64,000 nucleotides of DNA from Bacteroidales bacterium (GTDB lineage Bacteria; Bacteroidota; Bacteroidia; Bacteroidales; BM520). Under the pieces are notes generated by a model. The model saw nothing but the letters and a program-made list of their open reading frames with translations, did no database searches and was not told the DNA's origin. The position numbers and the translations under genes were made by a program. Within the stretch, counting starts at the first letter, position 1. Each line of letters starts with the position of its first letter. Shown here piece by piece: positions 41,453-54,729 of this stretch. The stretch is taken from NCBI GenBank assembly GCA_016285515.1, contig JAEEQW010000003.1, positions 1-64,000 of the forward strand. The letters run 5' to 3'.

Positions 41453-42187
41453 ATGGACAAAATGACGCAAAACGAAGAAATCATTAACTATTTCAGGCCT
41501 ATAGGGTTATTTAAGACTGCTGACATTGCCGCTTGGTTTCGCAAATCGGAACCTGACTTGAAGGACTCCACCATCAATTGGCGCGTGTATGAGTTGGTGA
41601 AAGACGGCGTGATAACCCGCATATCGAAAGGGGTTTTCATGATTGGGGAGAAACATTCGTATAGGCCTACCGTGGATGCAAGGATTCAAAAACTGGCCAA
41701 GGCTATCAGCAAACAGTTCTCGTTTGCTGAGTTCTGTCTATGGGATTCAGCTATGATTAACAATTTCTCCCAGCATCTGACTGCTCAAAGTTTTTATGTG
41801 GTTTCCGTTGAAAAAGATGCTGCCGAATCGGTATTTCATTTCCTGTTAGAGAAGAATAAAAACACATACTACAATCCAACTGATGATGTGATTGACAATT
41901 ACTTGTATCAGAAAGGCACCAAACCTGTTGTGGTGAAAAACATGGTTTCGGAGGCTCCGACCGAAACTATTGACGGGGTGACAGTCCCTTCGCTTGAGAT
42001 GATTTTGGTGGATCTTTTCTGTGACAAGCGTCTTTTCAAAGCCTACCAAGGTAACGAGTTGGTACACATTTACAAAAATGTCTTCAGCCAATACTCCATT
42101 AATATGACAAAGCTGGTGAGATATGCGGCAAGACGTGGCAAAAAACCTGAAATTGAGGAATTTATAGAAAAGCTAAATCATGATTGA
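41453..42187 (+). CDS. AbiEi-like antitoxin / DUF6577-type winged-helix protein (type IV TA)
   Basis: N-terminal wHTH (FKTADIAAWFRKSEPDLKDSTINWRVYELVKDGVITRISKGVFMIG); overlaps AbiEii-type gene by 8 bp. Confidence 0.78.
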   Translation: MDKMTQNEEIINYFRPIGLFKTADIAAWFRKSEPDLKDSTINWRVYELVKDGVITRISKGVFMIGEKHSYRPTVDARIQKLAKAISKQFSFAEFCLWDSAMINNFSQHLTAQSFYVVSVEKDAAESVFHFLLEKNKNTYYNPTDDVIDNYLYQKGTKPVVVKNMVSEAPTETIDGVTVPSLEMILVDLFCDKRLFKAYQGNELVHIYKNVFSQYSINMTKLVRYAARRGKKPEIEEFIEKLNHD

Positions 42188-43241
42188 CTATACTGCAATT
42201 GACATTAACTGGATAGAGAACGTATCCAAGGCAAACCGCAACACGGACAAGACTTTGGTTGAGAAAACCATTAGGGCATTCGTTTTGCTTGAAGGGCTGG
42301 CCTCGACAGGATTGCCATTTGTATTCAAAGGCGGCACTTCACTCATGTTGCTGACAAAATCAAGCAAGAGAATGTCCATCGACATTGACATCATCATGCC
42401 GGATGTTCCCTCTCATCTGACGGAAATGTTGGAGGCAGTTGTCCAGAAGCAAGGTTTCCTTCGGGTAGAGCGGCAAGAGCGTCATAGTGAGACCAAGGTG
42501 CCTAAGATACATTACAAGTTTTATTACAAGCCCATACACCGCACAGCGAATGATGAGGATTTTGTATTATTGGATATTCTCACGGAGCAGGTGCCGTATG
42601 CTGACGTCAGGCAGGTGGAGCTCACATCGAGATTTCTGCCGATGGGAGAACCATCGACCATGGTAATGTTGCCCAGTGCCAATGACCTGCTGGGTGACAA
42701 ACTGACTGCCTTTGCCCCAAATACTACAGGCATCCCTTACTTAAAGAAAGGCAACGGTATGGGTATGGAAATCAACAAACAGCTTTATGACGTGGCTTGC
42801 CTGTTTGATTTGTTCGACGACTTGAAAGTCGTTACAAATACTTTTGAGAAGATTGCGGATAATGAATTGCACTATAGAGATGGCAACAACCTTACAAAAA
42901 TGGATGTCTTAGAGGATATTTTCCAGACCGCACTGTGTGTCAGCACTCGTGGCATGCAAGGCAAAGGCGAGTTTGACGAACTGATGGCGGGTATCAAAAG
43001 AGTGAACGGTTTCATTTTCTCGGAGTCGTATCAGATTGACAAAGCAATTGTTTGTGCCTCAAAAGCCGCATATCTTTCGGCGTTAATCAAGAAAGGAGAC
43101 GTGGAGTTTGAGCGTTATTCCAACCCATTGCAAATCAAGGAATGGCAGATTGAACAGACGGAATACAGCAAACTGAACAAGCTGAAAAAATCAAGTGCGG
43201 AGGCGTTCTTCTATTGGTATAAGGCGTGTGCGATGAGATAG
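42180..43241 (+). CDS. Nucleotidyltransferase, AbiEii/AbiGii toxin family
   Basis: FVFKGGTSLMLLTKSSKRMSIDIDIIMP (GGTSL...DIDI nucleotidyltransferase motif), GDKLTAFAPNTTG. Confidence 0.88.
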   Translation: MIDYTAIDINWIENVSKANRNTDKTLVEKTIRAFVLLEGLASTGLPFVFKGGTSLMLLTKSSKRMSIDIDIIMPDVPSHLTEMLEAVVQKQGFLRVERQERHSETKVPKIHYKFYYKPIHRTANDEDFVLLDILTEQVPYADVRQVELTSRFLPMGEPSTMVMLPSANDLLGDKLTAFAPNTTGIPYLKKGNGMGMEINKQLYDVACLFDLFDDLKVVTNTFEKIADNELHYRDGNNLTKMDVLEDIFQTALCVSTRGMQGKGEFDELMAGIKRVNGFIFSESYQIDKAIVCASKAAYLSALIKKGDVEFERYSNPLQIKEWQIEQTEYSKLNKLKKSSAEAFFYWYKACAMR

Positions 43242-43356: not shown

Positions 43357-43546
43357 TTAGAAGAAAAAAGCATCCGGCATCCATAGTCAACCGGTCGGTA
43401 GTGCGCCGTGCGGCCTAAGCCGTGCATTCGAATGACAACGTGCTGAGCCTGCGCCGTGCGGTTCATAGTGAACGGGTGTTGTCGGCTCCGGGCAACGGTC
43501 AGAAGTGGGGGTTCGGTTCGCCCTACGGATGCGGATGCATATAGGT

Positions 43547-44002
43547 TCAGACCAGCTCGGTCTGGAAGTTCAGCGATTGTATCTCCATGTCGAGTTTGCG
43601 CAGCTCAGCAGAGCATTCGTCTGCCTGCTTGCCGATGGTTTTCACGTTAACCACGGTCACCGTCTTGATTTCAGAGCGTGAATAGCGGTCCTGTCCCGCC
43701 GAGGCGGTCTCGAAGATGCTGCGCAGGTTGTTGACGCGCATGGTCAGCACGTCCTTGCGTGCCATGAGTTGCGTGAGGGTGACTCCCTCGGCGTTTTGGG
43801 TCTTCATGTTGGTGGCGTTGATGCGCCAGATGAGGTCTTCCAGTTGTGTCAGGCAGGCGTCGAGTTCCTTCATCAGCTCCATGGGTTCTTCCGAAGGCGA
43901 ATCGCCCTCCTGCACTTTCACGTTGTTCTGTATGCGCTGACCCAGCTGTTGGATGCGCTTTTGCAGGTCTTTCCTGATGCTTAATGCTTCTGCGAGTTTC
44001 AT
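43547..44002 (-). CDS. DIP1984 family protein
   Basis: MKLAEALSIRKDLQKRIQQLGQRIQNNVKVQEGDSPSEEP, LEDLIWRINATNMKT; start at MKLAEA. Confidence 0.8.
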   Translation of the reverse strand: MKLAEALSIRKDLQKRIQQLGQRIQNNVKVQEGDSPSEEPMELMKELDACLTQLEDLIWRINATNMKTQNAEGVTLTQLMARKDVLTMRVNNLRSIFETASAGQDRYSRSEIKTVTVVNVKTIGKQADECSAELRKLDMEIQSLNFQTELV

Positions 44003-44147
44003 GGTGGATGGTATTTTGGCGCAAAGATAGTAAAAAATGAGGGATGGTGAGCGTTTGAATGGGAATAAGCTTGATTTCTTTGGTGTGTTTGAAAGGATTA
44101 TGGGGAACTTTTTGAGCAAGGCCAATAGTATGAAATCGAAAAGTTAT

Positions 44148-44155
44148 TATATTTG
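44148..44155 (+). promoter_or_regulatory. -7 promoter element TATATTTG ahead of the defence cassette
   Basis: TAnnTTTG motif 25 bp before the ATG of the DUF4007 stub. Confidence 0.5.
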
Positions 44156-44179
44156 CAGATTCTAAATGCTAACAATGCA

Positions 44180-44266
44180 ATGAGTTATTCAAAATATGTT
44201 TTTTCTGGGCATGAATCTTTTACTTGCAAGACCTTATGGCTGAAGAAAGGGTACGGACTGTGTTAA
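44180..44266 (+). pseudogene. 5' remnant (28 codons) of a DUF4007-family gene
   Basis: MSYSKYVFSGHESFTCKTLWLKKGYGLC*, matching the conserved DUF4007 N-terminus (FSGHESFxCKxLWLKKGY) before truncation. Confidence 0.7.
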
Positions 44267-44285: not shown

Positions 44286-45083
44286 ATGAAACAAGAGCAA
44301 CTTAATAGGTTCCTTGAAGTGCTCAATGAATACCATGTAGATATGCTCAAAACGCTGTCGGCATTGGTGATGAAGAATACAGGCTCGCAATATAACACAC
44401 CACACGGCTCGTTTGACGCTTCGAAAGGCGACCTCCGTTTGTTAGGTGTAACGGCTGGAACAGGTGGCCGGTCTTACATGAACTTCCAGAAAGTGCCAGG
44501 GAAGTTGGCAGAGTTCTGCCAGTTGACGAATGAGCGTCGTCATCAGTTGATGGATACCGATGATATGATAGATAAGTATCTGTTGTGTTTCGATGCCCAC
44601 TGCCAGTTGGTGACTATCCATCCTTGGGCAGATGGCAACGGACGCATGTCGCGTCTTGTGATGAACCATCTGCAATACGAGTTCGGACTGGTGCCGGTGA
44701 AGATTGTCAAGGAAGACAAGGCGGAATACATTCAGGCACTTGTTGAAGCTCGGAAACAAGAATCGCTTGAACCATTCCGTGAATTCATGATGGAAGAGCA
44801 CATTCGGAACCTCAGCAAAGAGATTGGGGAATTTAAACAATCACAACAAAATGACCCGATAAGCATTACCCCTGACCCGATAAACACATTCTCTGACCCG
44901 ATAAAACAACAATTGTATCAGGCTGTTTTACGGGATGGTTCGTTGAATTACGCTGGATATGCCGCATTGATAGGTGTTTCTGAAGCCACTATCAAGCGTC
45001 GGCTCAACGAACTGAAAAAGGAAGGAGCCATTGTCCGTATAGGCAGCAACAAGACTGGACATTGGGAAATAAAAAAACAATGA
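44286..45083 (+). CDS. Fic/DOC family protein with C-terminal winged-helix domain; probably lacks N-terminal inhibitory region
   Basis: HPWADGNGRMSR Fic motif; GGRSYMNFQKVP; C-terminal wHTH LNYAGYAALIGVSEATIKRRLNELKKEGAIVRIG. Confidence 0.88.
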   Translation: MKQEQLNRFLEVLNEYHVDMLKTLSALVMKNTGSQYNTPHGSFDASKGDLRLLGVTAGTGGRSYMNFQKVPGKLAEFCQLTNERRHQLMDTDDMIDKYLLCFDAHCQLVTIHPWADGNGRMSRLVMNHLQYEFGLVPVKIVKEDKAEYIQALVEARKQESLEPFREFMMEEHIRNLSKEIGEFKQSQQNDPISITPDPINTFSDPIKQQLYQAVLRDGSLNYAGYAALIGVSEATIKRRLNELKKEGAIVRIGSNKTGHWEIKKQ

Positions 45084-45089
45084 CAGATT

Positions 45090-46148
45090 ATGATATTGCC
45101 ACAAAATAACAAACTCCCTATTACTCGTTTTGCTGGGGTTTTCAATAACACAACAGCTACTTACAAATTCTATTGGTTTGTGTCGTTGCTTGATATTGTT
45201 GTGAAAGAACGGAAGACCAAAATCTCTTTTTGGGAAATCATAGCTGGAATGGTGGCGGAGTCATGGTACCCGATTCACTATTTCAAACTTTCATTTGGCA
45301 AATCCGATTCACTTTACGACCAGTCATTGGCACTACAACAAGAGTTGAACATTACGATAGACGCTGACAAAGAAAGAATAAAAAGGTCTTTACTTGATAG
45401 CATTGAAAATGGTCGGGTAAGAAGTTTGTTGCGAGTTTTCACGCTTAATGTTCCGTATCGTTTTTTGTCACCATGGATAACGTATACAACAGATAGAGAG
45501 GTAATAGCTAGTTCACAGCGATATGAAAACAATTGTTTGTACGCGCTCAATGGTGAAACGATTGAACTTAATCCAATATGGAATGATTATTTGATGGAAC
45601 ATTACGGCATTTTACGTGATTTTTCGTTTTGGAATCTGGCCATTTTCCTTCAGAAACGCAATCCAAATGTTCCAGATGTGCCGTCAAAACTCATCAAGCC
45701 GATTCAGCGAGATTCGCTTACCAAACAACGTAAGTTTTGGGATTCATATATCGAAACAGTTGGTTCAATCCGTTGCATATATACAAACAATGTGTTGGTT
45801 GTCAGAGGTTACGATTTGGACCATTTTATTCCATGGAGTTTCGTATCACACAACTTATTATGGAATCTGTTACCAGCTGACTCAAGTATCAATTCATCGA
45901 AAAGCAACAACCTGCCGCCTTTGGATATTTATTTGAAACCATACGCAAAATTGCATCACGAGGCATTAAAAACGCTTTATCCAATGAAACCTAATAACAA
46001 TCTTTTCGAAGATTATCTTACTGTGTATGATTCCGTTCCAGAATTGATTCGACTGTCTGATAATGATTTTTGCAATGTTTTTCAAAAGACTTTTTCACCA
46101 ATGGCGCAGATAGCTGAAAATATGGGGTTTAAATATTGGATACGATGA
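45090..46148 (+). CDS. HNH endonuclease-family protein
   Basis: YDLDHFIPWSFVSHNLLWNLLPADSSINSSKSNNLP (DHxxPWS...WNLxP...N..K). Confidence 0.82.
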   Translation: MILPQNNKLPITRFAGVFNNTTATYKFYWFVSLLDIVVKERKTKISFWEIIAGMVAESWYPIHYFKLSFGKSDSLYDQSLALQQELNITIDADKERIKRSLLDSIENGRVRSLLRVFTLNVPYRFLSPWITYTTDREVIASSQRYENNCLYALNGETIELNPIWNDYLMEHYGILRDFSFWNLAIFLQKRNPNVPDVPSKLIKPIQRDSLTKQRKFWDSYIETVGSIRCIYTNNVLVVRGYDLDHFIPWSFVSHNLLWNLLPADSSINSSKSNNLPPLDIYLKPYAKLHHEALKTLYPMKPNNNLFEDYLTVYDSVPELIRLSDNDFCNVFQKTFSPMAQIAENMGFKYWIR

Positions 46149-47017
46149 AAAGAGTAAAAAACAATCCGCACTTGACAGCAAAGGAGCGCACATCTGTTTC
46201 GTTCCCAACCCGATGGTTCAAACAAAACAATCTTCTGCAAGGTGAGATTTTGGATTTTGGATGCGGCTTTGGCTTTGACACTGACCAGCTAAAAAAAGAA
46301 GGTTTCAATATTGTCGGTTACGACAATTATTATCGCCCTGAATATCCCAAAAAACGCTTTGACACGATTATTTGCAACTATGTCCTAAATGTTTTGGAGC
46401 CCGAGGAACAAGCCGAAGTGCTCATGTCGGTTTCGGAATTGCTAAAACCTACGGGTACGGCATATTTCACAGTCCGCCGTAATTTGAAATATGAAGGATT
46501 TCGCACGCATTTTGTGCATAAAATGCCTACATATCAATGCAATGTTTTGTTACCATACAAAAGCGTGTTTTCAAACGAAAATTGCGAGATTTATGAGTAC
46601 AAACATTACAACCAGTCCGATTTCAAAAGGAACTATAAAATTGTAAAAAATTGTCCATTCTGCAATTTGAATTCAAAAGTAGAGTTGTTGTGCGAAACGG
46701 CAACTGCCGTCGCGTTTTTAGACGGCTATCCTGTGAGCGAAGGACACACTCTAATTATCCCCAAACGCCACGTGGCCAGTTATTTCGACCTTACAACACA
46801 CGAACAACGTGCGTTATGGTTAATGGTAAACCATTGCAAAAAGATATTGGAAAGCCGTTTCCATCCCGATGGTTTCAATATCGGAATCAATGTGAACGAA
46901 GCCGCAGGGCAGAGCGTGTTTCATGTTCATATACACTTGATTCCAAGATATAAAGGAGACGTTGAGAATCCCAAAGGTGGGGTGAGAGGAGTGATTCCGA
47001 TTAAACAAAAGTATTAA
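46136..47017 (+). CDS. Fusion of class I SAM-dependent methyltransferase and HIT-family domain
   Basis: GEILDFGCGFGFDTDQLKK (motif I) ... NCPFCNLNSK...GYPVSEGHTLIIPKRHVASYFDL...QSVFHVHIHLIPR (HIT HxHxH). Confidence 0.88.
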   Translation: MDTMKRVKNNPHLTAKERTSVSFPTRWFKQNNLLQGEILDFGCGFGFDTDQLKKEGFNIVGYDNYYRPEYPKKRFDTIICNYVLNVLEPEEQAEVLMSVSELLKPTGTAYFTVRRNLKYEGFRTHFVHKMPTYQCNVLLPYKSVFSNENCEIYEYKHYNQSDFKRNYKIVKNCPFCNLNSKVELLCETATAVAFLDGYPVSEGHTLIIPKRHVASYFDLTTHEQRALWLMVNHCKKILESRFHPDGFNIGINVNEAAGQSVFHVHIHLIPRYKGDVENPKGGVRGVIPIKQKY

Positions 47018-47038
47018 ACTAAATTTGATGAGACTATT

Positions 47039-47935
47039 ATGTTGTTACGTCAAGATATAAATGATGATTTTCTCAATCTTTTCACAAAGATTGTGGAAAA
47101 CGAGCCATTAGATAATGATAACAAATTAAATTTGTTTGTTCTTAAGATTTCTAATAATAGTTTCAATTTAGGCGATTTAACTGAAGAATTGGAGAATGCA
47201 TTGCTGACATATGCACTTTCTCGCCATACATATAATGAATTAGTTGATCAGAAGAAGTTGGGTAACTTGGCTTCAAAAGCAAGGGAAAAGCTTAGAAATG
47301 CCAAAAGTAATGAAGGTGAATTAGGTGAGCTTTTATTGTATTGCCTTTTGGAGTCACACCTTCATGCGCCAAAATTACTAACCAAACTCGAATTAAAAAC
47401 AGCATCAAATGATTATGTAAAGGGGGCTGATGGTGTTCATTTGTTACAAATTGACAAATCGTCATATCAGATAGTTTTTGGCGAATCCAAGTTAAATTCA
47501 GATTTACACAAGGGGATAAAAGACGCATTTGATTCTATAAAAACTATGATGGATAATGATTTGCGAAAAATGCGATATGAGATAAGTCTTGTAAATAGTA
47601 ATATCTTAAAAGAAGTTGTAACTGAAGAATCGGCTGAAATATTGAAAAAACTGTTGATACCAACGGAAAATGACGATAATTTAAACATAGACAATTCCTT
47701 TGGGGTTTTTCTTGGTTTTGATATAGAGATTTCAGATGACGAACGCAAAATGAATCATTCTCAATTCAGAGAGCATATAAATGATAGAGTAAAAACTGCT
47801 GTGAATAACCAAATCCCGACTATCAATAAATTCCTTAATGAGTCAAACTTTTTAGGGTATGATTTTTATTTTTATATAATACCATTTTCAGAGTTGGAGA
47901 GAGTTAGGAAAGATATAATATCACAATTAAAGTAA
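47039..47935 (+). CDS. hamA: Hachiman defence protein HamA (DUF1837)
   Basis: NEGELGELLLYCLLE...LELKTASNDYVKGADGVHLL...IVFGESKL nuclease-like motif; directly upstream of a HamB-like helicase. Confidence 0.85.
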   Translation: MLLRQDINDDFLNLFTKIVENEPLDNDNKLNLFVLKISNNSFNLGDLTEELENALLTYALSRHTYNELVDQKKLGNLASKAREKLRNAKSNEGELGELLLYCLLESHLHAPKLLTKLELKTASNDYVKGADGVHLLQIDKSSYQIVFGESKLNSDLHKGIKDAFDSIKTMMDNDLRKMRYEISLVNSNILKEVVTEESAEILKKLLIPTENDDNLNIDNSFGVFLGFDIEISDDERKMNHSQFREHINDRVKTAVNNQIPTINKFLNESNFLGYDFYFYIIPFSELERVRKDIISQLK

Positions 47936-47941
47936 CACGAT

Positions 47942-50509
47942 ATGGTTCTTGCTGATGAAATAGCAAAAGAAATAATGAATAATCCATATTTCCACAAGCT
48001 ATATATTAAGTGTATGGAGTATTCTTACAATGAAATGCTTGGAAGTGATAATGGTATTACTTATACGGAAAAAGAATACAAGGATTTGTTAAGGTTTGCG
48101 GAACTTTTGTCAAATTCTTCGGGTTCTCAATCGAGAGGATATGCCTACAGAATAATAACTTATCTTAATTCTACATACAAAGAAGAACCTTATTATCGTA
48201 CAGTTTCTAAGTCCGTGTATTATAATCTTGGTAATTTTCCGGCAGCATATTATTTGATTAATAATGATGGAAATGAATCGGAACTACCATTTGACCGAAT
48301 GATGCAAGTTGAAGCAAAAAAGATCATACAAGAAGTTCCTGATGCGGATGGGGTTTATTTTACAGATACTCAATATCATTTATTCTCAGGATTGAGCGGG
48401 GCGCGTGAATTTAGCTTTTCAGGACCGACATCAATGGGAAAGTCTTTTATTATTAAGGCATTTTTACGTAGAATAATTAATAATAAGCCACCAGAAAACT
48501 TGGTAATAATGGTCCCAACAAGAGCTTTGATTAATCAATTTGCAATCGAAATAAAGCAAGAGTTAGGGAAGCAATTAGACAGAGCAAATTATAAAATTGT
48601 CACAAATTCCAATGTGTCGGAACTTATTCTTGAAAGAAATGTTAGTTTGGTTTTAGTGCTCACTCCCGAGCGTTTAATTAGTTATTTGTCTCAAAATGAA
48701 AACCCATCGATTGGTTTTTTATTTGTGGATGAAGCACATAAAATCGCTCAGGATGATACTCGAAGCGTTACCACTTATGTTTCAATTGAAAAAACATTAA
48801 AGAAGTATCCTACCACTAAACTATATTTTTCTTCTCCTAGTATTTCAAATCCCGAAGTGTTTTTAAAGCTTTTTCGAAAACCAGAACAAAATGTTTTTAA
48901 AACCGCAGAGACCACTGTCGCTCAAAACTTGTTTTTTGCAGATTTGGAAACTAGGGAACTGTCTTATTATTATGAGAATAAGTTCAATAATGTAACAACA
49001 CAAATTCCACAGTGTGTAAACACAGTGAATGACTTTCTTCTCACGTATGGGAGAAATAGTAATCTGATATACTGCAATACGGTTGCTAAAACAATTGAAT
49101 ATGCTACCAACTTCGCGGATTCAATTGACTTAGTTAATAACGAAGAATTGAAAAACAACAAGGCTTTAAGAAAGGCTTCTAGAATAATAAAAGATTACAT
49201 CCACCAAGATTATTATTTGACCGAAATAATAAAGAAAGGAGTTGCATATCATTTTGGTAATATGCCTCAATTAATTCGGAATTTAATAGAAGATTTGTAT
49301 AAGAGAGGGGATATTAAATATATGTTTTGCACTTCTACATTGTTGGAGGGGGTTAATATGCCCACACAAAATTTGTTTATTCTTGACAATAGGAAGTCAA
49401 AAAAGAATTTGAAACCTATAGATTTCTGGAATTTGGCAGGAAGAGCTGGTCGTATGACAAAAGAATTGCAAGGTAATGTTTTTTGCATCAAGCATTCTGA
49501 TTGTGATTGGGCTAATGTTTCGTTTTTTAATACCAAAGAAGTAGAACTTATTCCAACGGTGTTTGATCGGATAAACCATAATTTAAAGAAAATAGAAAAT
49601 CAAATAAAAAACAATGAGATAAAAAGTGGTACGGAAGAAGAAAAGAATATCTTGCGCTATATTGCTAATATTATAAGTATTGATACTATGGAACCTAAAA
49701 CGGGTTACCAAAGTCCTATAATACAGGAATTGATAAGCAATAATAAAGATGAAATTATATCAATAGCACAGAATAAAATCAAGGAGAAAGGCATTAAGAC
49801 CCCTTATACTTTATTGGACTCAAATGAATCTATTGGTATAGACGTTCAAAACAAGGTTTATTCGCAACTAAAAGTAGAACATAAAAACGGGAAAAATATC
49901 AAATTGCATAATGTTGTTGATTACGAATCATGTTTGGCTATACTTGAAAGATTTTATTGTTTATATGATTGGGAAAAGACCAATAAAGAATTGTCTAATA
50001 AGAATAGCATGAAGTATTATGCTTTGTTGATGAATCAATGGATTAATGGAGAAAGCTTAAACCAAATCATTACAGGATCAATTAATCATTATTCATCGAA
50101 ATCGAAGATGATACGATTGTCATATGGGAATGATGAACTTTTTGATAGTAGTAATAAAAAGCATATCAACACGTTGATTAGTAATATAATAAGTGATATA
50201 GAAAGAATATTACGCTTTCAGTTTGAGAAATATTTCAACCATTATTATATGATGTTGAAGTATATAATAGGAGAAGAGAACACTGGAGAGAATTGGGCAA
50301 CTTTGTTGGAATATGGTACGCAAAATAGAATTATTATTGCATTACAAAATTTAGGATTGTCAAGGCATACCGCAAATGTAGTATTCAAAAACTATCGTTA
50401 TGCAATAAGCATCGAGAATGGTAAATTAAAAGAGGTTAATAAGTTACAATTATTAAAACATCTTTCACCAGACACACTAGAATATGAAGAAATACAAGAA
50501 CTATTGTAG
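47942..50509 (+). CDS. hamB: Hachiman defence helicase HamB (DEAD/DEAH-box superfamily 2)
   Basis: FSGPTSMGKSF (motif I), FVDEAHKIAQD (motif II), FCTSTLLEGVNMP, DFWNLAGRAGRM (motif VI). Confidence 0.88.
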   Translation: MVLADEIAKEIMNNPYFHKLYIKCMEYSYNEMLGSDNGITYTEKEYKDLLRFAELLSNSSGSQSRGYAYRIITYLNSTYKEEPYYRTVSKSVYYNLGNFPAAYYLINNDGNESELPFDRMMQVEAKKIIQEVPDADGVYFTDTQYHLFSGLSGAREFSFSGPTSMGKSFIIKAFLRRIINNKPPENLVIMVPTRALINQFAIEIKQELGKQLDRANYKIVTNSNVSELILERNVSLVLVLTPERLISYLSQNENPSIGFLFVDEAHKIAQDDTRSVTTYVSIEKTLKKYPTTKLYFSSPSISNPEVFLKLFRKPEQNVFKTAETTVAQNLFFADLETRELSYYYENKFNNVTTQIPQCVNTVNDFLLTYGRNSNLIYCNTVAKTIEYATNFADSIDLVNNEELKNNKALRKASRIIKDYIHQDYYLTEIIKKGVAYHFGNMPQLIRNLIEDLYKRGDIKYMFCTSTLLEGVNMPTQNLFILDNRKSKKNLKPIDFWNLAGRAGRMTKELQGNVFCIKHSDCDWANVSFFNTKEVELIPTVFDRINHNLKKIENQIKNNEIKSGTEEEKNILRYIANIISIDTMEPKTGYQSPIIQELISNNKDEIISIAQNKIKEKGIKTPYTLLDSNESIGIDVQNKVYSQLKVEHKNGKNIKLHNVVDYESCLAILERFYCLYDWEKTNKELSNKNSMKYYALLMNQWINGESLNQIITGSINHYSSKSKMIRLSYGNDELFDSSNKKHINTLISNIISDIERILRFQFEKYFNHYYMMLKYIIGEENTGENWATLLEYGTQNRIIIALQNLGLSRHTANVVFKNYRYAISIENGKLKEVNKLQLLKHLSPDTLEYEEIQELL

Positions 50510-50702: not shown

Positions 50703-51221
50703 ATGAGTTTAGAAGGTTGGCTAGGGATAATAGCCACAATTGTTGTGGCAGTCTTATTCTACTTTTTACAGAAGTTGGATAATAAGAAGAGTAATAATGG
50801 TGATAAAATGGTGGAGGAGAAAAAGTATAATGGGATGAGTCTGAAGGATATAAACTTTGTCGTTCCAACAAAGAGGACGCAATCTACAGGAAAGCCCTGG
50901 AGAAACGCTTTGGTTTTTGAGATACGGGAAGTTTATCATGGATATATGACCACAATAAAATATACCAATGTTGGGAGTTGTGAAGTGAGGAAAGTAAGTG
51001 TAAGTGTGGAGCAAGATACAGATGAAATGGTTTCACTTACTTTAATAAAGAATGAGCACATTTTTCCGATAGAAATGCTTAATGTTGGTGATGGTTTTGA
51101 AATAGAAGTGGAATGTTATTATCCAAAAACGAATAGATATTTTACTATAGAATGGGAAGATAAAGCGGGAAAGCATAGCCAACGAAACTATATTCTACTT
51201 TCAAAAAACTACATTGTATGA
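50703..51221 (+). CDS. Single-pass membrane protein of unknown function
   Basis: N-terminal TM helix WLGIIATIVVAVLFYFLQ then soluble beta-rich region; follows hamB, overlaps next ORF by 8 bp. Confidence 0.65.
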   Translation: MSLEGWLGIIATIVVAVLFYFLQKLDNKKSNNGDKMVEEKKYNGMSLKDINFVVPTKRTQSTGKPWRNALVFEIREVYHGYMTTIKYTNVGSCEVRKVSVSVEQDTDEMVSLTLIKNEHIFPIEMLNVGDGFEIEVECYYPKTNRYFTIEWEDKAGKHSQRNYILLSKNYIV

Positions 51222-51867
51222 AAAAAAGCCCCTGATGGGCAATTCTTTGGAAGACTATCGCACACAATTCTCAAAGATATCGGAAGACTCTTCTGCTGCA
51301 ATGTATAGCAGAACAAGCCAAGCCATCAGGAAAATACTTGATTCGTTTGTTTTGGCAAAGAAGAAGAACAAAAGAGAGTTTTTGGACCAACTCGAGGAAG
51401 TTACCAATGACTATCTTGCACTCTTGAACAAAGGCGATTTTAGGGGCTATGCGCAAATCATAGAAAAGCCGAATTCAAGTGCTGAAATTATTTTGATAGA
51501 TACGGACGGTTCTCGCATATATAATGCCAATACGGCCTTGAAGACCACTATGTACATGTCGTTGTTGTTCGCGGTCGCCAAATTGACCACCGTCAAGCAC
51601 GAAAACGATTATCCTCTTATCTTCGATGCGCCTACGTCATCGTTTACTGCTGCAAAGGAAAGCGACTTTTTCGGTGTGATTGCTGGAATCAACAAACAAA
51701 CCATCATTGTCACGAAGAGTTTCCTGGTTGAAGACGCCGAAGGAAATTCCACTTTGGACGCTAAGCGCCTAGGTGAGATTGACGCAAAAAAATACCGCAT
51801 CGAAAAAGTTTGTCCTTTTGATGAAAAAGACCTGTCCACCATCCAAACTTATGTTGAACCCATCTAA
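51214..51867 (+). CDS. C-terminal fragment of a DndD/SMC-like AAA ATPase (likely truncated gene)
   Basis: KTTMYMSLLFAVAKLTTVKHENDYPLIFDAPTSSF (Walker B/D-loop) ... KRLGEIDAKKYRIEKVCPFDEKDLSTIQTYVEPI; no Walker A in the fragment. Confidence 0.7.
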   Translation: MYEKKPLMGNSLEDYRTQFSKISEDSSAAMYSRTSQAIRKILDSFVLAKKKNKREFLDQLEEVTNDYLALLNKGDFRGYAQIIEKPNSSAEIILIDTDGSRIYNANTALKTTMYMSLLFAVAKLTTVKHENDYPLIFDAPTSSFTAAKESDFFGVIAGINKQTIIVTKSFLVEDAEGNSTLDAKRLGEIDAKKYRIEKVCPFDEKDLSTIQTYVEPI

Positions 51868-51877
51868 ATCCAAAACT

Positions 51878-52477
51878 ATGCCAATTACTAGCAACAACAA
51901 ATATCGTGAAGACATTTTTGATGTGTGGGGAAGAAAAACGCCGTCATACGAAAAGCATTATGAAACCGAGGTGATTAAGCCGCTTGCGGATTTTGGCATC
52001 GGAACTAATGCTGTTTCAGATGCAAAGGGCAAAATACTGGGTGCTGCCTACGAGGTGCTTATCATGGCCTATTTCATCGGCTTGTATTCAAAAAGACAAA
52101 AGCCGTTGGGAGAATATGCTGACATAAAGGATTGTGGACAGCCCATACAGTATTGGGGTAATGTTGACTCAAAGAAAGGAAGAAAAGCATACCCCAAACT
52201 TAGGGAATACATGTTTATTTCATTAGTAGCCCGCACTCCCGATATAGATTGGATTGCCCTCGACAAAGGCCAACGGACGGTAAATGAGACCGTGAGTATG
52301 CTGATGATTACGATGGAAGAGTATATCAATTATGGCCTATCGGTATTAGCTGAAAAGATAAAAGAGGATGAGGGCTATTTCTACAACAAGAACTCATTCT
52401 TGGACATCTTCAAAGATTTTACTCGTCCAGAAAAAGAAATGGTAGTGGAAGAAGATGTCCCTGAATCGTTAGATTAG
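51878..52477 (+). CDS. Conserved companion protein of DUF4007/DndD-like defence loci
   Basis: SNNKYREDIFDVWGRKTPSYEKHYETEVIKPLADFGIG; 10 bp downstream of the ATPase fragment; start at MPITSNN. Confidence 0.55.
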   Translation: MPITSNNKYREDIFDVWGRKTPSYEKHYETEVIKPLADFGIGTNAVSDAKGKILGAAYEVLIMAYFIGLYSKRQKPLGEYADIKDCGQPIQYWGNVDSKKGRKAYPKLREYMFISLVARTPDIDWIALDKGQRTVNETVSMLMITMEEYINYGLSVLAEKIKEDEGYFYNKNSFLDIFKDFTRPEKEMVVEEDVPESLD

Positions 52478-52860: not shown

Positions 52861-52865
52861 AAAGT

Positions 52866-53102
52866 GTCTTACCCTGAAAAAAAGTTGACACTTTTGGGAG
52901 CAATACCGAATGTGGAATGAAACCAAGGGCACGGCAATTGTACAATGAAAAACTCTGATGCGCACAAGCCTTCTGTCACCCTCTCACAGAGTGATGGACA
53001 CGGTTCCTGAGCCAGTCGAAGGAACCGTGTCCATCGTGTTTTTGTTCCCTGCAAAACTACTACTTTTTCGTCTTAACTCCTGCTTTCAATTTTTGGGTAC
53101 AT
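52866..53102. repeat. IS/MITE-like repeat, copy B, with internal perfect hairpin
   Basis: Left end TGTCTTACCCTGAAAAAAAGTTGACAC shared with copies A and C; right end TTGTTCCCTGCAAAACTACTACTTTTTCGTCTTAACTCCTGCTTTCAATTTTTGGGTACA shared with copy A. Confidence 0.78.
52993..53035. repeat. Perfect 16-bp inverted repeat (hairpin)
   Basis: GATGGACACGGTTCCT-gagccagtcga-AGGAACCGTGTCCATC. Confidence 0.9.
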
Positions 53103-54674: not shown

Positions 54675-54729
54675 GGCTTCACATTGTACGGGTTTGTACT
54701 GCTTGCAAAAAGTAGACTGTAAAACCTGT

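Follow-up and report, generated by a model that had tools for sequence, protein, structure and literature searches.

A Hachiman system behind a conserved HNH and methyltransferase-HIT gene pair, within the probable remains of a Bacteroidales Ssp-Pbe locus

In Hachiman, the helicase HamB holds the nuclease HamA in check while DNA is intact and activates it once DNA is damaged (PMC12278908); the nuclease motif of HamA is D-GEXK (PMC12799240). Among the phosphorothioate systems, SspBCD is a phosphorothioation module and PbeABCD a restriction module, in which PbeD is a cognate of DndE (PMC10853773). Here, we describe a gene cluster that brings parts of these systems together. It lies in a 64,000-nucleotide stretch of Bacteroidales DNA (positions 1 to 64,000 of contig JAEEQW010000003.1, assembly GCA_016285515.1; hereafter the window) and encodes a Fic protein, an HNH endonuclease, a methyltransferase-HIT fusion (MTHIT), HamA and HamB. 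An earlier note, made from the sequence alone, had read these genes as one extended Hachiman operon. The five genes are genuine, but their grouping as one system is wrong. Adjacent defence genes on the same strand are commonly taken as one system; here, one apparent operon represents three histories placed end to end.

Ssp and Pbe remnants around the cluster

We compared the window with 80 related loci (L numbers below), the best 80 of 412 relatives matched in a genome-collection scan with 15 MTHIT protein queries. The cluster is bracketed, in the correct order and on the correct strand, by an sspB stub on one side and pbeC and pbeD remnants on the other (Table 1). The stub region shares 82% DNA identity over 124 base pairs (bp) with the intact sspB start of L097 (E=1e-25), and is the sole DUF4007 match in a search of the window's whole genome. 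Full-length relatives of the remnant ATPase match PbeC (1e-21), and in intact loci this ATPase gene comes after PbeA (match E=0; TIGR04095). L097 shares the pbeC/pbeD remnant (92%/91% amino acid identity) but carries different cargo ahead of it, and the pbeC fragment had no match among viral contigs.

Since the sspB stub precedes fic, and the pbeC C-terminus and pbeD follow hamB, an Ssp-HNH-MTHIT-Pbe locus had its outer parts replaced. We are fairly confident that the architecture and history are those of an Ssp-Pbe phosphorothioate locus with two exchanged slots around HNH-MTHIT. The ancestral order would have been approximately sspB-sspC-sspD-HNH-MTHIT-pbeA-pbeC-pbeD. In the first slot, everything from the 5' end of sspB to HNH would have been replaced by fic, and in the second, everything from MTHIT to mid-pbeC by a Hachiman cassette (hamA-hamB and a 172-amino-acid open reading frame, ORF), leaving as a constant centre the HNH gene translationally coupled to MTHIT. 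Neither Ssp nor Pbe is present as a system in the window, which has lost sspC, sspD, pbeA and the greater part of both sspB and pbeC: the locus lacks intact SspB, SspC and SspD, no SspB other than the stub occurs in the genome, and pbeC is cut at about residue 516. The GC content steps from about 38-40% in HNH and MTHIT to 28-34% (about 31%) from hamA to the 172-amino-acid ORF, and then to about 42% in the pbe remnant. This ORF had no family match in profile searches and no counterpart in L078, and probably belongs to the inserted cassette.

The five same-strand ORFs listed in the earlier note are all present, with the gaps it gave for fic/HNH (+6), MTHIT/hamA (+21) and hamA/hamB (+6). Its gap of -13 for HNH/MTHIT rests on a TTG start at 46136; the more probable start is the ATG at 46145, used by most homologues, which overlaps the HNH stop as ATGA and gives -4. 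Pfam and PADLOC profile searches confirmed its typing of the five proteins and its recognition of HamA and HamB as the two-gene Hachiman core. Absent from it were the fic deletion, the sspB stub, the 172-amino-acid ORF, the pbeC remnant with pbeD, and the GC steps.

Table 1. Features of the cluster and its flanks in the window
Feature	Coordinates	Strand	Evidence and remarks
Leader kept from ancestral ssp operon	44132..44179	+	Bacteroidetes -7-like TATATTTG at 44148; inside the 124-bp match to L097
sspB (DUF4007) 5' remnant	44180..44266	+	28 codons, then stop; PF13182 positions 1-23, E=3e-4 whole genome
fic	44286..45083	+	Pfam Fic 7e-12; core HPWADGNGR kept; C-terminal winged helix-turn-helix; 77-amino-acid in-frame deletion relative to L090 homologue
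HNH endonuclease (Cas9-type HNH domain)	45090..46148	+	Pfam HNH_4 1e-9; N-terminal ~200 residues helical, without known match
MTHIT, class I methyltransferase-HIT hydrolase fusion	46145..47017	+	Pfam methyltransferase 9e-11 and HIT 7e-25; TIGR04096 N-terminus
hamA, Hachiman effector nuclease	47039..47935	+	Pfam HamA 3e-58; PADLOC HamA1 2e-116; D...GESK
hamB, Hachiman helicase	47942..50509	+	Pfam DEAD/Helicase_C; PADLOC HamB1 E=0
172-amino-acid ORF, hydrophobic N-terminus	50703..51221	+	ORF call; low GC as in hamAB
pbeC (CxC-type ABC ATPase) C-terminal remnant	51242..51867	+	~residues 516-722 of 723; 86% DNA identity to L097 from 51242
pbeD, 199 amino acids, DndE-like by position	51878..52477	+	Apparently complete; 50% identity to pbeD of intact L137, 91% to L097

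The HNH-MTHIT pair and its exchangeable surroundings

In 79 of the 80 loci, the gene immediately 5' of MTHIT is HNH; the contig of the 80th starts inside MTHIT. The spacing is -4 in 51 loci. Among the 71 loci with enough sequence, 31 have no same-strand ORF of at least 80 amino acids within 150 bp 3' of MTHIT. The pair is therefore found as an independent two-gene unit without a constant third partner, and HNH-MTHIT is most likely a separate two-gene nuclease unit. This fits the alternative offered by the earlier note, a second, unnamed defence module of HNH and methyltransferase/HIT that is translated together with Hachiman, for which an antiviral role is presumed. Isolates, too, carry the pair (L106, L119, L125, L131 and L150). 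Among 18 further genomes that contain it, 17 lacked SspB and one retains a 65-residue stub in the locus, in a search that did not extend to Dnd writers; the pair can therefore do without an Ssp writer in its own genome. Searches of plasmid and phage collections with MTHIT returned matches to the HIT domain alone, and so give no evidence for an intact pair on plasmids or phages in those collections.

What lies around the pair varies. Behind it, we found Wadjet I (L072, L076 and L079), PbeA-PbeC-PbeD (L093, L096, L098, L137 and L151), DruE-type (L106), DdmD-like (L090 and L099), Mko-like (L088, L100 and L116) and LmuB-like genes (L085, L104 and L107), a TIR-containing protein of short-Argonaute type (L108), and a JetD-containing SMC-like cassette (L081, L110, L111 and L115); other loci carry unknown genes. 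On the 5' side, L097, L140 and L143 retain nearly complete sspB and sspC genes, whereas L085, L101, L105, L109 and L129 have, like the window, just a stub of sspB. Several Ssp/Pbe genes accompany the pair in L093, L096, L098, L137 and L151, and L098 reads partial sspB, sspC-sspD-HNH-MTHIT-c39-pbeA-pbeC-pbeD.

The slots combine freely. An AbiL-like pair (c16-c17) lies 5' of HNH-MTHIT in loci with DdmD-like cargo (L090 and L099), with SspD-PbeA (L092) and with a PDC-S60-like gene (L102). The 5' edge of the second slot stays near the MTHIT stop across loci, while its 3' edge is ragged: pbeC resumes at codon 408 in L104, 456 in L097, 516 in the window, 570 in L078 and 612 in L075, and a piece of pbeD alone is left in L073, L074, L090, L099, L101 and L109. 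The slot is empty in L101 and L109, where pbeD continues from about codon 142 directly after the MTHIT stop. Across 28 loci with 12 cargo states, 19 changes are required on the HNH tree and on the MTHIT tree alike. The ancestral, empty-slot and other-cargo versions in these relatives form a natural series of defence-system exchange.

The variety of cargo, about ten defence gene families, also suits a different view of function with the same locus history, in which HNH-MTHIT is a general add-on, acting as effector or brake of whichever system lies behind it, with that partner supplying the trigger. The ATGA overlap and strict pairing fit this view, as does the parallel with nuclease-protease pairs. 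We consider it unlikely: the 31 of 71 loci without a close follower speak against it, as does the lack of MTHIT-partner protein fusions in the loci inspected, and the scars of a single Ssp-Pbe ancestor account for the shared position with no need of functional coupling.

Fic does not belong to the constant part of the locus, and in the window occupies the former sspBCD position; among the 80 loci, its family precedes HNH-MTHIT in one other, L090. The deletion in the window's fic is relative to this closest homologue, a 369-amino-acid protein (L090:7704-8813). The deleted segment holds STAIEGS, which fits the Fic inhibitory motif (S/T)xxxE(G/N), while the catalytic HPWADGNGR is retained.

Further observations concern the surroundings. 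The SMC-like cassette has four genes of about 400, 190, 1220 and 290 amino acids in a Wadjet-like layout; in L110, PADLOC matched neither the 1220- nor the 397-amino-acid protein, and the protein at the end is JetD-like (4e-8). The cassette is possibly a divergent Wadjet type. Genes resembling TcmP and Gp37/Gp68 lie 5' of HNH in L074 and L114 (assigned by eye, with no profile). An AbiEi/AbiEii type IV toxin-antitoxin pair lies upstream of the cluster (window 41453-43241), and in L115 an AbiEi-AbiEii pair is directly 5' of HNH-MTHIT. Window 43364-44030 is 90% identical to a segment upstream of the pair in L099, hinting that flanking DNA was shared or exchanged along with the locus. A short repeat at 52865-52961 recurs as a 90% copy at 54727 and, in shorter matches, in other parts of the genome. 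In the leader, TATATTTG recurs at L097:2963 and may be a promoter; matches to TAnnTTTG occur at about chance frequency.

Hachiman, the pair and their possible functions

The hamAB genes of the window are most likely a canonical type I Hachiman. HamA is a DUF1837 protein with the nuclease motif kept (GADGVHLL...FGESK, i.e. D...GESK), and hamB, encoding a superfamily 2 helicase, follows on the same strand, both genes being full length. Judging by these motifs, the window's HamAB would behave as published Hachiman, with HamB surveying DNA and freeing the nuclease HamA when that DNA is damaged or of phage origin, most likely in the ordinary way.

If HNH, MTHIT and possibly Fic were accessory effectors or regulators of HamAB, as the earlier note proposed, they would resemble the HamM nuclease-protease pairs of HamMAB; recurrent add-on nuclease pairs are indeed known in Hachiman (PMC12799240), the genes share a strand and tight spacing, and L078 provides a second case of HNH-MTHIT-hamA-hamB. 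This explanation is improbable. Behind the pair, hamAB occurs in one of the 80 loci (L078), and the flanks available for the five nearest unlinked hamAB loci (HamA about 40% and HamB about 49% identity) contain neither HNH nor MTHIT. HNH phylogeny places the window with L090, L092, L093, L099 and L102, and L078 with L097, L101, L105 and L109. A clade of the window with L078 is rejected by the approximately unbiased test (p-AU 1e-72); HNH and hamAB were therefore not inherited together. The neighbourhood comparison called for by the earlier note thus found the co-occurrence in one other of the 80 loci, with no wider linkage and, by the HNH tree, no coevolution, and no stable extended-Hachiman subtype emerges. 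Many unrelated systems take the same slot, Fic is not constant, and the HamA nuclease motif is kept here, whereas it is lost in virtually all protease-HamA fusions (PMC12799240).

Several points weigh against our reading of the window as separate units in exchanged slots. L078 is a second HNH-MTHIT-hamA-hamB locus, with a pbeC scrap behind, so the window is not alone in this association. A clade of the window with L078 is compatible with the MTHIT tree (p-AU 0.30), and part of the cassette may therefore have travelled jointly. The cluster's spacing is tight enough for co-transcription. Many of the compared loci are contigs of metagenome-assembled genomes, and the search for phosphorothioate writers in genomes with the pair covered Ssp but no others (Dnd).

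Counts of terminator-like and sigma-70-like sites within the cluster do not exceed shuffled expectation. A TAnnTTTG at 47020, immediately 5' of hamA, is a candidate internal promoter, though this motif occurs at about chance frequency.

The proteins themselves bear on what the pair does. The HNH domain matches the Cas9 HNH profile (2e-8), and H245, N259, N268 and K271 are invariant in nearly all of 44 aligned homologues. The AlphaFold2 model has a predicted local distance difference test score (pLDDT) of 89 and a predicted template-modelling score (pTM) of 0.62; its N-terminal 200 or so residues found no structural relative in the PDB with Foldseek. In MTHIT, the S-adenosylmethionine (SAM) motif residues G39/G41 and the HIT residues H260/H262 are invariant in nearly all of 29 homologues, the top PDB matches are HIT structures, and the N-terminal 90 or so residues match TIGR04096, a DNA phosphorothioation-associated methyltransferase family, in 29/29 proteins. 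In L089, L091, L124, L125, L128, L129, L141, L144 and L149, the MTHIT ORFs are 365-387 amino acids, about 80 above usual.

A nuclease always paired with a methyltransferase, outlasting the loss of the Ssp writer, recalls restriction-modification, in which MTHIT would methylate host DNA and HNH would cut unmethylated DNA. However, inspection of two alignments revealed no DNA-methylase motif IV, the catalytic motif of DNA methyltransferases, but an invariant YVLNV at about that place. There is no target-recognition domain, and the nearest sequence relatives are UbiG-type and other small-molecule methyltransferases, together with TIGR04096. We therefore regard restriction-modification as quite improbable. 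That the pair is a decaying relic marking an exchange breakpoint, as its position between two replaced slots and the relics of pbeC and sspB around it might suggest, is very improbable given its invariant catalytic residues, its persistence without a close follower in many genomes, and ratios of nonsynonymous to synonymous substitution rates (dN/dS) of 0.04-0.13 for HNH and 0.04 for MTHIT (in the sole comparison with unsaturated dS), which indicate purifying selection on the pair.

The strictness of the pairing, the translational coupling and the persistence of the pair after loss of the original system suggest a self-contained nuclease unit in which MTHIT may control HNH. HNH would cut DNA, and MTHIT, its constant partner, would license or restrain it in a reaction that binds SAM and an adenylate. 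Since HIT enzymes use adenylated substrates and SAM is the ligand of class I methyltransferase domains, we favour a small molecule or an adenylyl group as the means of control, a tentative proposal whose last step is a guess. The pair is presumably antiviral, and hamAB and HNH-MTHIT would act independently. More broadly, it is conceivable, if somewhat short of probable, that HNH-MTHIT is an unrecognised immune nuclease pair in wide use among Bacteroidota, acting by itself or as a plug-in effector, with the methyltransferase-HIT protein controlling a Cas9-type HNH, and that the locus is a two-slot platform for swapping whole systems (Hachiman, Wadjet, Pbe, Druantia-like, short-Argonaute-like and others), with the pair and a pbeD end as its fixed borders. 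With 412 relatives matched in one scan, the analysis brings out an abundant, conserved and uncharacterised nuclease pair. We found no published description of it in the literature searched, which is not proof that none exists.

Comparison with described systems

The window shares with type I Hachiman adjacent, full-length hamA and hamB of the HamA1 and HamB1 families, with nuclease and helicase motifs, and differs in being embedded in an Ssp-Pbe remnant behind HNH-MTHIT and in the additional 172-amino-acid ORF. It differs from type II Hachiman and HamMAB in that no HamC was found and there is no protease fusion. With SspBCD and PbeABCD, the CxC-ABC ATPase-DndE system (PMC10853773), the window has in common the sspB stub, the pbeC C-terminus and pbeD, and its relatives have sspB, sspC, sspD, pbeA, pbeC and pbeD around the pair; the window itself has neither sspC, sspD nor pbeA, and its sspB and pbeC are largely missing. 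We found no HNH-MTHIT in the published Ssp/Pbe descriptions examined.

Like SspE and DndI, which combine DUF262 with a DUF1524 HNH (PMC11662687), the window's HNH is a nuclease tied to phosphorothioate systems. However, it is of the Cas9-type HNH_4, the only Pfam match, with neither DUF262 nor DUF1524; its N-terminal part has no PDB relative, and it is kept without sspB. It does not, therefore, belong to the SspE/DndI-type phosphorothioate-sensing nucleases. MTHIT differs from TIGR04096, a model of 478 positions, in having a shorter methyltransferase domain plus HIT, and scores 56 bits against a curated cut-off of 150. Finally, the nuclease-protease pairs of Hachiman, Avs and Lamassu (PMC12799240) are likewise fixed, nuclease-containing pairs near several unrelated systems. 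Those pairs consist of a metallo-beta-lactamase-fold nuclease and a trypsin-like protease, and here the pair is HNH and methyltransferase-HIT, HamA is unfused with its motif intact, and the origin in an exchange locus is explicit.

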